From: Aminivibrio sp.
GTDB taxonomy: Bacteria; Synergistota; Synergistia; Synergistales; Aminobacteriaceae
Assembly (NCBI RefSeq): GCF_016756745.1
Contig: NZ_JAESIH010000051.1
Coordinates: 62,001 to 126,000, forward strand
Direction: 5' to 3'
Length of the DNA: 64,000 bases
Shown: piece by piece, positions 44,367-50,779 of the stretch
How positions within the stretch are numbered: the first letter of the stretch is position 1
Layout of the letters: every line of letters starts with the position of its first letter
Position numbers and translations under genes: made by a program
The notes under the pieces: model-generated
The model's database searches: none
The model's input: the letters and a program-made list of their open reading frames with translations, nothing else
Told to the model about the DNA's origin: nothing

Positions 44367-45575
44367 ATGAAAAGAATGGAACTTCTGCGGAGACTTGCCC
44401 GCGACAACGGGGGAAAAATGATCCTTCTCGTTATGGACGGCATCGGAGGACTTCCCGGTCCGGACGGAAAAACCGAGCTGGAAGCCGCCCGCACACCGAA
44501 CCTCGATGCTCTGGCGGCAAAGAGCGAGCTCGGTCTTATCGACATAGTGGACACGGGAATAACCCCGGGAAGCGGTCCGGGTCATCTTTCCCTGTTCGGC
44601 TACGATCCTCTCGAGTATTCCATCGGCAGGGGCATTCTCGAGGCCATGGGCGTCGGTGCTCTGGTGGCCCCGGGAGACATCTGCGCCCGGGGTAATTTCT
44701 GCACCCGCTCAGAAGACGACGTCATCCTTGACAGGAGAGCCGGTCGGATAGCCACGGAAAAAAGCGCTCTCGTGGTGGAGAAGCTGGCGGCCTCCATCAG
44801 AGAGATCGATGGTGTAAAGGTCACGTTATACCCAGGAAGGGAGCACCGGTTTGTCGTCGTCTTCTCCGGCCCCGGCCTGACTCAGCAGGTTGCCGATGCC
44901 GACCCCCAGCAGGAAGGGGCCCCCATGCGCTGGGCGGCTTCTCTTGGTCCTGACGGGGAACGGATGGCTGCCGTGGCCAATGCCTTCATCAGAAAGGTCT
45001 CGGAGGTTCTCCGGGGTAATGCCCCGGCGAACGGCTGCCTGCTGCGTGGATTCTCCTCAGCTCCCGATCTGCCGCTGATGGGGGACCTCTACCGTATGAA
45101 GCCCGTTGCCGTCGCAACTTACCCCATGTACAGGGGACTGGCAAAACTCGTCGGGATGGATGTCGTCGACGCCGGCGAAACTCTGGACCGGCTCTTCGAT
45201 GCCGTTGGCCGTCTCTGGAACGACTATGACTACTTCTACGTCCACGTGAAATACACGGACAGCAGGGGAGAGGACGGAGACTTCGACGGCAAGCGGAAAG
45301 TGGTGGAAACGGTGGACGGCCTTCTGCCGAAACTCCTTGCCCTTTCCCCCGAAGTAATCGTGGTGACGGGGGACCACAGCACTCCCAGCGTTATGAGCGC
45401 CCACTCCTGGCATCCCGTACCCTTCCTTCTCTCCAGCCCCTACGTCCGTTCAGGGGATTCAAAGGCTTTCAGCGAAAGGGAATGCCGCCTCGGCTCGGGC
45501 GGAAGAATGGAGGCCAGGAAGTTGCTCGGACTGATGCTCGCCCATGCCGGACGTCTTGAAAAATACGGCGCCTAA
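44367..45575 (+). CDS. apgM: Cofactor-independent phosphoglycerate mutase, ApgM type
   Basis: This 402-residue enzyme should interconvert 3- and 2-phosphoglycerate with bound metal ions. It belongs to the alkaline phosphatase superfamily. LLVMDGIGGLP near residue 27 carries the first metal aspartate. DTGITPGSGPGHLSLFGYDP near residue 63 has the catalytic serine, and VTGDHSTPS near residue 332 carries later metal ligands. This short form is typical of Archaea and several anaerobic bacteria, unlike the 510-residue GpmI. GGAGGTGG precedes the ATG. It heads an operon with a YhaM-like nuclease, an RluA synthase and a small selenoprotein gene. Confidence 0.93.
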   Translation: MKRMELLRRLARDNGGKMILLVMDGIGGLPGPDGKTELEAARTPNLDALAAKSELGLIDIVDTGITPGSGPGHLSLFGYDPLEYSIGRGILEAMGVGALVAPGDICARGNFCTRSEDDVILDRRAGRIATEKSALVVEKLAASIREIDGVKVTLYPGREHRFVVVFSGPGLTQQVADADPQQEGAPMRWAASLGPDGERMAAVANAFIRKVSEVLRGNAPANGCLLRGFSSAPDLPLMGDLYRMKPVAVATYPMYRGLAKLVGMDVVDAGETLDRLFDAVGRLWNDYDYFYVHVKYTDSRGEDGDFDGKRKVVETVDGLLPKLLALSPEVIVVTGDHSTPSVMSAHSWHPVPFLLSSPYVRSGDSKAFSERECRLGSGGRMEARKLLGLMLAHAGRLEKYGA

Positions 45576-45585
45576 GGTTGCTTTC

Positions 45586-46644
45586 ATGTCAATACGGGGT
45601 GATGGCGCGGAAGAGCAGCGGTTGAGCAAGACCGGAGACATCCGGCGTATGGCCAAGGACGACCGGTTCAAGGTCCTCGGTGTTGTTTCGAGAGCTTCCG
45701 TGAGAAAGGACAAGAACGGAAAGAATTACTGGGACATTGCCCTTATGGACGACGAGGGAATCATCGAAGGTAAAATTTGGGGAAATTCCAGGTGGTGGGA
45801 CAAAAGCGGGGACGAGCAGATTGAAGTCCGCGATCCTGCCGATTCGTCCCTTTTCGGGGAGCTTGTGGGCAAAACCCTGGGACTGGCGGGACAAGTAAGC
45901 GAATTCAAAGGGCAGCCCCAGTACAATTTCACCGGGGTCTATTTCATGAACCAGGAGAAATTTCCTCCGCACCAGTTTGTTCAGCGTTCGCCAATTGACA
46001 GGGACATCCTGGAGAAGGAGTTTTTCGATCTTCTGGAGAGCTGCGGCGGACAGGTAGAGGCATTTCTCCGCTACGTTTTTTTCGAGAGAAAACTCTGGGA
46101 CCGGTTCAAGGACTGCCCCGCAGCAGTGGCCCATCACCACGCCTACGTCGGGGGGCTGCTGGAGCATACCCTTGCGGTGGCGAGAACGGCCAGGGCCCTG
46201 GCAGGAACCTACTCCGAAGCGGGGTATGAAATCAATGTTCCCGTTGCCGTTGCGGGGGCACTGCTGCACGACCTTGGAAAAATGGATTCCTACAGACTCG
46301 TTCCTGCTCCCGAGATGACGGTGGTCGGCACGGTCATTGACCATATCGTCCTTGGATACAGCACCTTCGCCGACCTTGCCGGGGATTTCGGCCTGGAGGA
46401 ACGGATTTTTCTCGCCATCGGCCACATTCTGGTAAGCCACCACGGCTGCCGGGAATTCGGATCCCCCGTTCTGCCCGCCACTCCCGAGGCTATGGTGGTG
46501 AGCGCCGCAGACGAGCTCGACTTCAGGCTCTTCTGCTGGAAGAATTCCGTCGAAAAGATGGAGGAAGGGAAGGAAATTTCCGATTACAACGTATCCGCCC
46601 AGAGGCGGTTCTGGAAATGGGAGCAGGGGAACAATGGCGCATAA
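45586..46644 (+). CDS. YhaM-like 3'-5' exoribonuclease (OB + HD domain)
   Basis: This protein of about 352 residues has an N-terminal OB-fold (about residues 20-115, beginning FKVLGVVSRASVRKDKNGKNYWD). An HD phosphohydrolase domain follows, with HHHAYVGGLLEHT near residue 184 and ALLHDLGKMDSY near residue 227. This is the YhaM architecture, whose members degrade RNA or single-stranded DNA from the 3' end. Start choice is uncertain: ATG 45544 would overlap apgM by 32 bases, ATG 45586 is preceded by AAGG, and ATG 45649 is also possible. It overlaps the RluA-type gene by 11 bases, which suggests coupling. Confidence 0.85.
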   Translation: MSIRGDGAEEQRLSKTGDIRRMAKDDRFKVLGVVSRASVRKDKNGKNYWDIALMDDEGIIEGKIWGNSRWWDKSGDEQIEVRDPADSSLFGELVGKTLGLAGQVSEFKGQPQYNFTGVYFMNQEKFPPHQFVQRSPIDRDILEKEFFDLLESCGGQVEAFLRYVFFERKLWDRFKDCPAAVAHHHAYVGGLLEHTLAVARTARALAGTYSEAGYEINVPVAVAGALLHDLGKMDSYRLVPAPEMTVVGTVIDHIVLGYSTFADLAGDFGLEERIFLAIGHILVSHHGCREFGSPVLPATPEAMVVSAADELDFRLFCWKNSVEKMEEGKEISDYNVSAQRRFWKWEQGNNGA

Positions 46645-47560
46645 ACTGACTGTTTCTTCATCCGACGGCGGACGCAGGCTCGACAAGGTGATCCGGTCCA
46701 TCTGGCCGGGGCTTCCGCTGAGCGTGGTCATGAAGGGGATCCGTACAGGCTCCGTGCGGCTCGATGGGAAAAAGGCCTCCTGCGATGTCCGGGTATCTGC
46801 CGGCCAGGAGATTTACGTCCCGTGGGAGAGTCCCAGGGAGGCGGCGGGGGAGTACCGCTACCGGAGGACGGTGCCGGTTCTCTTCAGGGACAGCCGCATA
46901 TGGGCGGTGAACAAGCCAGAAAACCTTCTCGTCCAGCCGGACAGGAAGGACCAGGACAACGTCCTCGACCGGGTGAAGTACATGCTTCATCTCGAAGGGC
47001 TCGAGGAAAGGGCCTATGCCGTGCACCGCCTTGACAGGAACACCACGGGCGTTCTGCTGGTGGCCCTTTCCGGGGTCAGCCTCCGGATTCTCCAGGATGC
47101 CTTCCGGGAGAGAAAAATACGGAAGACCTACCTCGCCGTGGTGGCGAGCTTTCCGCCGAAGGAAGGGGAGATACGGGCGCCTCTCCTGAAAGATCCTTCT
47201 TCGAACACCGTCCGGGTCGATCCCGCCGGCAAGGATGCCTTGACCAGGTACCGCCTTCTCGCCGGGGGAAACGACGCGTCTCTTGTCGAGATCGATCTTG
47301 TGACCGGGCGATCCCATCAGGCGAGGGTCCACATGGCGTCCATCGGATACCCCGTTCTCGGCGACATCAGGTACGGAAGCGAGGAAATCAACGGAAAATG
47401 GAGAAAACGCGGAATCCGGCGTCCTCTGCTTCACAGCTACAGGATTCTTTTCGGTGATCTCGGAGGCGAAATGGAGGATTTGTCCGGCATGAGAATTACC
47501 GCTCCTCCTGCCGGGGACATGGAGTCTCTTTGCGCCTCCCGGGGGTGGCGCCTTCCATGA
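46634..47560 (+). CDS. RluA-family pseudouridine synthase
   Basis: This 308-residue enzyme has an N-terminal S4-like RNA-binding domain (residues 1-60) and the RluA catalytic domain. NKPENLLVQP is near residue 95. The catalytic aspartate lies in AVHRLDRNTTGVLL near residue 134, and VTGRSHQARVHMA follows near residue 222. It should isomerise uridines in 23S rRNA; which site (RluC or RluD-like) cannot be told. The gene starts within the end of the previous gene. The selenoprotein gene starts 46 bases after its stop, so all four genes from apgM probably share a transcript. Confidence 0.9.
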   Translation: MAHKLTVSSSDGGRRLDKVIRSIWPGLPLSVVMKGIRTGSVRLDGKKASCDVRVSAGQEIYVPWESPREAAGEYRYRRTVPVLFRDSRIWAVNKPENLLVQPDRKDQDNVLDRVKYMLHLEGLEERAYAVHRLDRNTTGVLLVALSGVSLRILQDAFRERKIRKTYLAVVASFPPKEGEIRAPLLKDPSSNTVRVDPAGKDALTRYRLLAGGNDASLVEIDLVTGRSHQARVHMASIGYPVLGDIRYGSEEINGKWRKRGIRRPLLHSYRILFGDLGGEMEDLSGMRITAPPAGDMESLCASRGWRLP

Positions 47561-47606
47561 AGAAAAAGAGTGCCGGACTGAAGGTCCGGAGAGGAGGAGG
47601 ATGAAC

Positions 47607-47933
47607 ATGGAACTGAAAATCGTCGCGGAACGAAGCGTTATGGAAAAACTCCGGAAAATGGGCGAAGGGTTCGTCATCCAGCGGACACTCGGGCTCGGGT
47701 GAGGAGCAAGGAGAGTCTTCAGGGTTGAAGACGGGCCCCCTCCGTCGGAGGGCGAATACCGGAAGATCGAGCAGGATGGTGTGACCCTTCAGGTTCCAGC
47801 CTCCATGAAATTCAGGAAGGACATGGTGGAAATAGTCCGGCGGGGGTTTCTGTGGTCGGCTTATCTTATGGTGACGAGCGTCGAATCGGGCGGCGGTGCC
47901 TTTTGTGCTGATTGCTCCGATTGCGGTGAATGA
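47607..47933 (+). CDS. Small putative selenoprotein, HesB/IscA-like, with in-frame TGA (Sec32)
   Basis: An open frame of 108 codons runs from ATG 47607 (GGAGGAGG six bases upstream) to TGA 47931-47933 and contains one internal TGA at 47700-47702. Twelve bases after it, GTCTTC-AGGGTT-GAAGAC (47715-47732) forms a six-base stem with a G-rich apical loop, as in bacterial SECIS elements such as fdhF (loop AGGUCU). Sec32 sits in TLGLG-U-GARRVF, where HesB/IscA proteins have their first cysteine. The C terminus FCADCSDCGE (C100, C103, C106) replaces the usual CGCG. Ordinary gene finding would split or miss it. Redox or metal-carrier function is inference. Confidence 0.72.
47715..47732 (+). promoter_or_regulatory. 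Candidate bacterial SECIS element
   Basis: A perfect 6-bp stem (GTCTTC/GAAGAC) with loop AGGGTT lies 13 bases downstream of the in-frame TGA codon, inside the coding sequence, matching the position and loop guanines known for bacterial selenocysteine insertion elements. Confidence 0.68.
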
Positions 47934-48021: not shown

Positions 48022-48071
48022 ATGGACGGTCTTAAACGGCGGATGCCGTAAAAATTCAGGAGGTGTGTTTA

Positions 48072-49349
48072 ATGGCCGTAGTAAAGCGTACTTCCTCAAA
48101 CGTTCTCCTTGACACAGCACTCAAGAATTTCTATGCAGCAGCTGAGGAGATGGGTCTCGAAGAGGGGCTCATCGACATCCTCAGCCACTCCGAGCGCCGG
48201 ACATGCGTTTCTATCCCCGTGGAAATGGATGACGGAACGATAAGGGTTTTCGACGGGTACAGGGTTCTCCATTCTTCCGCCATCGGACCGGGCAAGGGCG
48301 GAGTCCGTTTCCACCCCGAAGTGAATCTCGACGAATGCGAAGCCCTTGGTATGATGATGACCTGGAAATGCTCCCTCGCCGGAATTCCCTACGGCGGAGG
48401 CAAGGGCGGCGTTTCCTGCGAACCCCTTGAGCTTTCCAAGAAGGAAAAAGAGCGGATCGCCAGGACTTGGGCAGCCCGGATGGCTCCCGTCATCGGAGCC
48501 TGGACCGACGTTCCCGCCCCTGACGTGAACACCGGCGGACCGGAAATGGTCTGGTTCATGGACACCATCAGCAAGATGAAGAACAAGCTCGAGCCCGCCA
48601 TCTTCACCGGCAAGCCCATTCCCCTGTGGGGATCCAAGGGCCGCACGGCTGCGACCGGCTACGGCGTTGCAACCTGCGCAATCGAACTTCTCAAGAACCT
48701 TGGGAAGTCTCCTGAAGGAGCCACCGTCGCCATCCAGGGATTCGGCAACGTGGGAACCTATGCAGCCCTTACCATGATCGATGCCGGGTCGAAGGTCATC
48801 GGAATCAGCGATATCACCGGAACCTATTATGCACCAAACGGTCTCGACATCAAGAAAGCCTTCGACCATGTGAGCAATCACCCGAAACATCTTCTTGAAG
48901 GTTTTACCTGCGACGGCTGCCAGAAGATCGATCTTCCCGAAGTTCTGTTCCTCGACTGCGACATCCTCATCCCCGCCGCCCTTGAGGGTGTCATCAACGG
49001 GAAGAATGCCGACAAGGTCAAGGCGAAGTACATTGTCGAAGCCGCCAACGGCCCCATCACTCCTGAAGGCGACGCAATTCTCGACGAGAAGGGAATTCTC
49101 GTCGTTCCCGACTTCCTCGCCAATTCCGGCGGAGTCATCGGCTCCTACTTCGAGTGGGCACAGGACCTCGGCGGCTTCTTCTGGTCGGAGGAAGAGTACA
49201 ACGATCGGCTGATCCGCATCATGAAGGATAACTTCCAGAGGGTTTGGACCTATGCGAAGGAAAAGAACGTCAAGATGCGCCGCGCAGCCTTCATGGCAGC
49301 TATCCAGAGAGTGGCCGATGCGGTGCGGATGAGAGGCGTGTTCCTGTAA
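48072..49349 (+). CDS. gdhA: Glutamate dehydrogenase (Glu/Leu/Phe/Val dehydrogenase family), copy 1
   Basis: This 425-residue enzyme should oxidatively deaminate glutamate to 2-oxoglutarate and ammonia with NAD(P). GPGKGGVRFHPEV near residue 76 and the catalytic lysine in PYGGGKGGV near residue 107 are family hallmarks. PAPDVNTGG near residue 157 and the Rossmann motif GFGNVGTYAA near residue 223 also fit. ATG 48072 follows AGGAGG by about 7 bases. A terminator separates it from the second copy. In an amino acid fermenter this enzyme would be the main route for releasing ammonia collected by the transaminases. Confidence 0.93.
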   Translation: MAVVKRTSSNVLLDTALKNFYAAAEEMGLEEGLIDILSHSERRTCVSIPVEMDDGTIRVFDGYRVLHSSAIGPGKGGVRFHPEVNLDECEALGMMMTWKCSLAGIPYGGGKGGVSCEPLELSKKEKERIARTWAARMAPVIGAWTDVPAPDVNTGGPEMVWFMDTISKMKNKLEPAIFTGKPIPLWGSKGRTAATGYGVATCAIELLKNLGKSPEGATVAIQGFGNVGTYAALTMIDAGSKVIGISDITGTYYAPNGLDIKKAFDHVSNHPKHLLEGFTCDGCQKIDLPEVLFLDCDILIPAALEGVINGKNADKVKAKYIVEAANGPITPEGDAILDEKGILVVPDFLANSGGVIGSYFEWAQDLGGFFWSEEEYNDRLIRIMKDNFQRVWTYAKEKNVKMRRAAFMAAIQRVADAVRMRGVFL

Positions 49350-49400: not shown

Positions 49401-49537
49401 GATCTCTTCATTAGACAGAAAAGAGAAATAAGTAGGCAAAATAAGCGCCGAGTGTGTTAAAATTTCAAAAGAACGGCACAATGCGGCGGCCTCTGTTTTT
49501 CATGGGGAAGTAGATCTCCGAGGAGGTGAAGGAACGG

Positions 49538-50779
49538 ATGAACCCGAGAGACATGTTTCTTCAGCAGCTTGAACAGGCGGTACCCTTTCTGACGGTGGAG
49601 CCCGAATATCTTGAAATGCTCAGGTATCCGAAAGAAGTGCTCGAGCTGTCTCTTCCGGTGCGGCTCGACGGAGGGGGGGTGAAGATTTTCAGCGCATGGC
49701 GGAGCCACCACAACAACGCTCTCGGTCCCTACAAGGGCGGTGTTCGTTACCACGCGGAGGTAAACCGGGACGAGGTCGTCGCTCTTTCCTCGTGGATGAG
49801 CATAAAGTGCGCCATCGCCGGCCTTCCCTACGGCGGAGGCAAGGGCGGCATATCGGTGGATGTCCGTGAACTGTCGCGGAACGAGCTTGAGAATCTGAGC
49901 AGGGCCTATGCTTTCGGCATCTCCAGGTTTGTCGGGACTGACTATGATATTCCTGCCCCTGATGTGTACACAAATCCCCAGGTAATGGCCTGGTTTCTCG
50001 ATACTTTCGAAAAGGTGAAGGGACGGAGCGAGCCTTCAGCCTTCACAGGGAAACCTGTCGTCATTGGGGGATCCCTCGGCCGAACCGACTCCACGGGCAA
50101 GGGAGGGATCTTCATCCTCAGGGAAGCTCTCAGGTCTCTGGGACTCCTGGGAAAACCTCTCACCGTGGGAATACAGGGATACGGTAACGTGGGTTCCCGG
50201 GCCCACCGTTTCGTCGAGGAAGATCTCGGCCTCACCGTAGTGGCTGTCTCTGACTCAGGTACGGCGGTTTACAATCCTGCGGGACTCAAATACTCGGAAG
50301 TAGGTAAATTCAAGGAAGAAACCCGTTCTCTGAAAGGTTTTCCCGGCGGAGAGGAGTTTTTCCCTGACCTGATTTTCGAAAAGAAAATGGACATCCTTAT
50401 TCTGGCTGCTCTCGGCGGCGCGGTTGACGAAAAAAACGCCGACGCGGTCAAGGCGAAGGTAATTCTCGAGCTGGCCAACGGCCCCATAACGCCTGCCGGC
50501 GAGGCCATTCTCGCCGACAAGGGTGTGCTGATAGTCCCGGATGTCCTCGCCAACGCCGGAGGAGTCATTGTCAGCTGTTTTGAATGGATCCAGGGACGCT
50601 CGGGAGACATGTGGTCCGAAGAATACGTTTTTTCAAAGCTGGATGAGAGGATGGTCCGCTCCTTCAGGGAAATCTGGTCCATTCGGGAAGACCGGAAGAT
50701 CAGCTTCCGCCAGGCCGCCTATGTCAAGGCGGTCGGCAGAATTGTGGATGCCATGAGGTTGCGGGGGATCTGGCCCTAG
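49538..50779 (+). CDS. Glutamate dehydrogenase family, copy 2 (divergent paralogue)
   Basis: This 413-residue paralogue keeps GPYKGGVRYHAEV near residue 71, the catalytic lysine in PYGGGKGGI near residue 103 and PAPDVYTN near residue 145. The nucleotide-binding GYGNVGSRA lies near residue 213. It differs from copy 1 through most of its length, so the duplication is old. It may use a different coenzyme or a different amino acid such as leucine, valine or phenylalanine. ATG 49538 is preferred to GTG 49526 because GAGGAGG is directly against the GTG. It has its own upstream region with no clear promoter that I can name. Confidence 0.88.
   Translation: MNPRDMFLQQLEQAVPFLTVEPEYLEMLRYPKEVLELSLPVRLDGGGVKIFSAWRSHHNNALGPYKGGVRYHAEVNRDEVVALSSWMSIKCAIAGLPYGGGKGGISVDVRELSRNELENLSRAYAFGISRFVGTDYDIPAPDVYTNPQVMAWFLDTFEKVKGRSEPSAFTGKPVVIGGSLGRTDSTGKGGIFILREALRSLGLLGKPLTVGIQGYGNVGSRAHRFVEEDLGLTVVAVSDSGTAVYNPAGLKYSEVGKFKEETRSLKGFPGGEEFFPDLIFEKKMDILILAALGGAVDEKNADAVKAKVILELANGPITPAGEAILADKGVLIVPDVLANAGGVIVSCFEWIQGRSGDMWSEEYVFSKLDERMVRSFREIWSIREDRKISFRQAAYVKAVGRIVDAMRLRGIWP

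Follow-up and report, generated by a model that had tools for sequence, protein, structure and literature searches.

Does the frame at 47607–47933 of the window, the whole 64-kb stretch of Aminivibrio DNA analysed here, encode a selenoprotein, and if so, of what kind? The first-pass annotation had proposed a hidden selenoprotein gene with a SECIS-like hairpin downstream of its in-frame TGA, and had assigned the product to the HesB/IscA proteins. We conclude that the locus is very probably a genuine 108-residue selenoprotein with an A-type-carrier fold, a judgement that leaves the choice of chemistry aside.

An interrupted frame

On the forward strand, 47607–47933 is open except for one TGA, at codon 32, and its translation ends in FCADCSDCGE before a TGA stop at 47931–47933, all as first described. 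The elements of the gene are as follows.

47607–47933, forward strand: putative selenoprotein gene, 108 amino acids plus TGA stop (sequence; starts of orthologues)
47591–47600, forward strand: Shine-Dalgarno region, GAGGAGGAGG (the sequence itself; comparable GGAGG sites upstream of orthologues)
47700–47702, forward strand: in-frame TGA predicted to be read as selenocysteine, Sec32 (same TGA in strong homologues, 42 of 151 Synergistota genomes)
47715–47732, forward strand: predicted bacterial SECIS hairpin, GTCTTC-AGGGTT-GAAGAC (bSECIS constraints; family-wide covariation)
47904–47930, forward strand: C-terminal tail CADCSDCGE (CxxCxxC), whose cysteines may serve as partners or ligands (retained within the genus and in family f3)

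Translation could also begin at an upstream ATG, at 47601; we prefer 47607 because it is better spaced from AGGAGG and agrees with the starts of orthologues. The closest of these, from the same genus, are 84 and 81% identical to the window protein. The gene was missed in annotation because it contains an internal stop codon that appears to be read as selenocysteine. A Pfam scan of the window protein returned no match, PDB sequence searches with the single protein and with a profile returned nothing credible, and an Rfam scan of 44–52 kb of the window returned no match.

A frame with a single TGA is not by itself unusual, and the 64-kb window holds 275 single-TGA-interrupted stretches of comparable size. 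Nor is the window hairpin unusually stable: in an RNA-fold check, as the first-pass annotation had suggested, the region showed no gain in stability over shuffled sequence (z −0.53), and stability of the window hairpin alone was therefore rejected as evidence for a SECIS element. These two observations are what speaks for the plainest alternative, in which the TGA is an ordinary stop that closes a short gene of 31 codons, with decaying sequence behind it. Because neither the TGA nor the hairpin beats chance in the window sequence alone, the evidence for both is conservation.

Conservation of the in-frame UGA

Homologues were found in 30 of 61 genomes (the window genome and 60 relatives), in 29 of them with at least one in-frame TGA in the matched stretch; the remaining genome, G038, has a homologue without one. 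A profile search found a family member in 58 of 151 Synergistota genomes, and in 42 of these 58 a strong homologue has TGA at the codon-32 position. The codon is thus kept in close and distant relatives, and homologues have Sec or Cys at residue 32, two of the outcomes on which the first-pass annotation had staked its proposal. The sense codons that occur there specify Cys or, rarely, Ser, and never Trp. Cys (TGT/TGC) is found in G038, in the second of two tandem copies in G111 and among a set of N-terminally extended members, and Ser (AGC) in a single genus, represented by G082 and G083. On a maximum-likelihood tree, whose few columns limit its resolution, Sec occupies 48 of 55 rows, with three label changes for Cys and one for Ser; the replacements are few and clustered. 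One genome (G045), with a chromosome of about 1.97 Mb, has four UGA-containing paralogues (L092, L112, L113 and L114).

Downstream of the TGA, substitutions between the window gene and its two closest orthologues fell at codon positions 1/2/3 in counts of 9/4/31 and 8/6/30. Because they are mostly third-position changes, the downstream part appears to be under protein-level selection, and the same bias is present on both sides of the TGA. Homology and purifying selection that run past the TGA in 42 genomes argue against an ordinary stop, as does Cys in its place in some homologues. Some relatives (e.g. L006 and L008) have extra in-frame TGAs near the C-terminus, which we take to be ordinary stops because orthologues end there. 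A scan of the genome collection with a narrow alignment returned five loci, all in Synergistota; it did not reach other phyla, Moorella included.

A conserved position behind rluA

The apgM, yhaM-like and rluA genes that had been named upstream of the frame are each recognised by Pfam models, and together with the downstream gene they define its neighbourhood.

44367–45575, forward strand: apgM-type phosphoglycerate mutase (PF10143/PF01676; neighbourhood cluster C3)
45544–46644, forward strand: HD-domain protein, yhaM-like, conserved upstream neighbour (PF01966)
46634–47560, forward strand: rluA-type pseudouridine synthase, upstream neighbour, ending in TGA (PF00849)
48063–49349, forward strand: Glu/Leu/Phe/Val dehydrogenase, conserved downstream neighbour (PF00208/PF02812)

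Between rluA and the selenoprotein gene lie 46 nt, and a longer gap precedes the dehydrogenase. Eight families (f1, f2, f3, f6, f7, f8, f9 and f10) contribute 31 distinct loci at which the gene stands behind rluA, usually in the order yhaM-like HD gene, rluA, selenoprotein gene, glutamate-type dehydrogenase; in families f4 and f5 it is found at other locations. No iscU or suf gene was recognised in this conserved neighbourhood, which gives no direct hint of Fe-S assembly.

The Ser variants occupy the same position. These orthologues (L110 in G083 and L111 in G082) lie behind rluA and have a Cys-rich tail, and selA is still present in both genomes. Also behind rluA, tandem TGA (Sec) and TGT (Cys) copies in G111 (L101 and L081; G111:C1:2136707–2137460, reverse strand) form a natural Sec-to-Cys pair. 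The window itself has two adjacent Glu/Leu/Phe/Val dehydrogenase genes, at 48063–49349 and 49526–50779, a pair that recurs in several relatives.

A SECIS hairpin maintained by covariation

The SECIS-like hairpin of the first-pass annotation is upheld by its geometry and by covariation across the family. The bSECIS model specifies a spacing of 16–37 nt, a loop of 3–9 nt, a stem of 4–16 bp and G at the first two loop positions (PMC13188914). With an extra A-U pair, the window hairpin presents a GGGT loop at 47722–47725, 19 nt after the UGA, and satisfies all of these constraints. In most homologues the stem is formed by nucleotides 16–21 and 25–30 after the UGA around a 3-nt GUN loop.

Over 39 homologues, 5.59 of the 6 stem pairs are kept, against 4.37 ± 0.14 (maximum 4.82 in 2000 trials) under a null of synonymous recoding, in which codons were chosen at random from the family's own synonymous codons. 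Among 34 distinct sequences, 93.6% of stem cells pair, as against 37–64% when the strands are slid; four stem pairs differ in both members, and none of 500 shuffles reached the observed covariation score of 0.320 (versus 0.182). The Ala codon before Leu illustrates the pattern: it is mostly GCT where the partner is AGC and GCC where the partner is GGC, a synonymous switch that preserves the stem. Non-Sec homologues mostly retain 1–4 of the 6 pairs; an exception is the tandem Cys copy in G111, with 5. A 5′ arm placed 3 nt further upstream characterises the window genus and its sister genus, and this form of the stem keeps 5.12 versus 4.78 pairs over eight sequences, a difference that is not significant alone.

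Selenocysteine machinery and the reading of TGA

The genes that the first-pass annotation had listed for confirmation (selA, selB, selD and that for tRNA-Sec) are all present in the window genome, where the tRNA-Sec has a UCA anticodon and selA directly precedes selB. The selD gene (L143, G000:C82:1228–2163, forward strand) has an in-frame TGA of its own, and SelD is itself a predicted selenoprotein. Across the phylum, selA occurs in 40 of the 42 UGA-bearing genomes compared with 113 of 151 overall (hypergeometric P about 1e-4). It went undetected in two UGA-bearing MAGs, G028 and G141, whose incomplete assemblies may be the explanation.

That TGA might be read as Trp, or be generally suppressed, in this lineage has a negligible probability. 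We found no point in its support, and against it stand the use of TGA as a normal stop in the window genome, where it terminates both rluA and the selenoprotein gene, the replacement of position 32 by Cys or Ser and never by Trp, and the presence of tRNA-Sec (UCA) and SelB. The machinery and the covariation of the hairpin likewise weigh against a TGA that merely ends a 31-codon gene, and we regard that reading as very improbable. A selenoprotein gene is the reading we retain, in agreement with the original proposal: the TGA is kept in 42 of 151 genomes, the SECIS stem covaries and the genome has the Sec machinery. SelB and tRNA-Sec would decode the UGA at 47700–47702 as selenocysteine by way of the hairpin at 47715–47732, and translation would then stop at the TGA at 47931–47933. 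From these sequence features we infer that Sec is incorporated in the cell.

A predicted A-type-carrier fold outside the defined family

An AlphaFold2 model of the window protein has a mean pLDDT of 79, with a low-confidence tail. In a Foldseek search with this model, the top nine PDB matches, among them SufA, IscA, HI1723, AQ_1857 and YneR, were all A-type carriers or their relatives, with probabilities of 0.97–1.00; the next match, an unrelated one, scored 0.23. TM-scores to the carriers are modest, at 0.4–0.5. By hhalign, the family aligned to E. coli IscA/SufA/ErpA with a score of 35.5 (E about 1e-5), whereas none of 40 column-shuffled controls exceeded 13.6 and reversed ones gave about 10.5. 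The Pfam model PF01521 did not match the window protein, and no member reached its gathering score of 26.3 bits, the nearest case being one relative at 25.0 bits.

The fold, the controlled profile alignment and this near-threshold match agree with the HesB/IscA relatedness first suggested, and show that the family is homologous to A-type carriers, yet outside the defined PF01521 family. The alignment sets Sec32 opposite IscA Cys35, so that the predicted selenocysteine sits at the first ligand cysteine, where the first-pass annotation had placed the TGA region. No PF01521 protein turned up in any of the 151 Synergistota genomes.

A second branch with apparent signal peptides

The window genome has a second copy of the gene (L130, G000:C55:84665–84925, reverse strand), with an in-frame TGA and the same SECIS-like hairpin. 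Its hydrophobic N-terminus, judged by eye, reads as an apparent signal peptide, and neither NCBIfam nor Pfam has a family that names it. Relatives of this copy in G001, G021, G036 and G043 have flanking genes in common, which resemble helicase/nuclease and indolepyruvate-oxidoreductase genes (names again by eye). The AlphaFold model of L130 has a pLDDT of 90, and its first matches are HI1723, IscA and SufA, at a lower probability of 0.60–0.89. Signal-peptide-bearing relatives score below the cut-off of the NCBIfam family NF041239 or do not match it. They keep the Sec.

Cysteine partners and possible chemistry

Among the reactive residues of the family, Sec/Cys32 alone is near-invariant. The three-cysteine tail, which had been read as part of a selenol-plus-cysteine centre, is present in the window protein but is not fixed: CxxCxxC occurs in the window genus and in f3, CxxCxC in genus g5, and other members have CC, CGC, a single Cys or no Cys. 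Set against the three ligand cysteines of IscA (C35 and the C-terminal CGCG), the family has Sec at the first position and a tail that varies among relatives.

Sec32 and the tail cysteines together would form a soft-metal or Fe-S centre, making the protein a modified A-type carrier. For the window clade we consider a metal or Fe-S centre the most likely role, with about an even chance of being correct. The CxxCxxC tail, which the Ser variants retain with changes, speaks for metal binding; tail cysteines that are not universal, and exported relatives that often have Sec only, speak against a fixed centre.

The same residues could instead serve a selenol-thiol oxidoreductase, in which Sec32 would be linked as a selenenylsulfide to a cysteine of the tail or, in members with a vicinal U-C pair, to the adjacent cysteine. 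This reading, to which we give a substantial probability somewhat short of even, accords with position 32 as the sole near-invariant reactive residue and with the retention of Sec in signal-peptide-bearing relatives; a variable tail and Sec-only exported forms also favour redox chemistry. All five vicinal U-C members lack tail cysteines and 38 of the 43 others have at least one, as if one partner cysteine were needed, a pattern that fits a single partner supplied from either place. Once corrected for relatedness, however, the association amounts to only 1–3 independent contrasts on the tree; moreover, certain exported members lack a further cysteine nearby, and the fold is not known among thiol-oxidoreductases. 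A vicinal Sec-Cys pair without C-terminal cysteines was noted for L021, L022, L100, L112, L113 and L142.

A third reading makes the selenoprotein a stand-in for the missing PF01521 proteins, taking over the duty of IscA/ErpA. The family does have the same fold in a phylum where PF01521 was found in no genome, but only 58 of 151 genomes carry a member and most do without; A-type carriers are absent altogether from many phyla (PMC2682760); no iscU/suf neighbour was recognised in the conserved context; and cytosolic Fe-S assembly would be out of reach for exported relatives. We judge such a role unlikely. A phylum-wide replacement of IscA was set aside, as most Synergistota genomes are without a family member.

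Returning to the family as a whole, we tentatively suggest, at well under even odds, that the IscA-fold selenoproteins of Synergistota, a phylum that lacks ordinary A-type carriers, may do something chemically other than carry Fe-S clusters; they would comprise a cytosolic branch fixed behind rluA and an exported one, with selenocysteine as the near-invariant centre and a cysteine partner that shifts between the C-terminal tail and the neighbouring residue. A selenoprotein family that was listed but unexplained can now be given a probable fold, its reactive position is defined, and its operon conservation is shown across a selenoprotein-rich phylum. Natural Sec, Cys and Ser versions, among them adjacent Sec and Cys copies in a single genome, make the benefit of selenium directly testable. 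Genes of the window clade lie below the current family cut-off and could drop out of standard annotation.

Comparison with known families

Like IscA, SufA and ErpA (PF01521), the window protein has the predicted A-type fold, with Sec32 aligned on Cys35. Unlike them, it has Sec for Cys, its tail is CxxCxxC instead of the CGCG of IscA, and no Fe-S assembly neighbours were recognised for its family.

The first-pass annotation had counted the protein among the known HesB-like selenoproteins. The described HesB-like selenoprotein exists in its Sec form in Methanococcus maripaludis, as shown by 75Se labelling; its function is unclear, and a mutant had no nitrogen-fixation defect (PMC11097638). The window protein resembles this family (TIGR01911) in being small, HesB-related and a predicted selenoprotein, but it lacks the listed motif UxGP, and TIGR01911 matched neither the window protein nor any of the 61 genomes searched. 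We therefore rejected this assignment; NF041239 is nearer.

NF041239, the 'CC/Se motif family (seleno)protein' (Moor_selen_rel), is predicted in Moorella with the motif CxxU and no function given, according to a 2026 review (PMC13188914). It is the sole NCBIfam family matched meaningfully: it matches all 23 aligned Synergistota members, several of which, in other families, pass its cut-off of 40 bits (40.0–47.7 bits), and gives the window protein 21.2 bits. Length and region are the same as in the Synergistota members. The review's CxxU differs from the GLGU (GxGU) of the window protein, which has no Cys at −3 and whose partner Cys would lie in the C-terminal tail. The window protein is a divergent branch of NF041239, or near it, though under its cut-off. 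The selenoprotein status of the wider family is already recorded (PMC13188914); what is added here is the relationship to the IscA fold, a position in the operon that is conserved, a second branch whose members appear to have a signal peptide, and a Sec/Cys architecture that varies.
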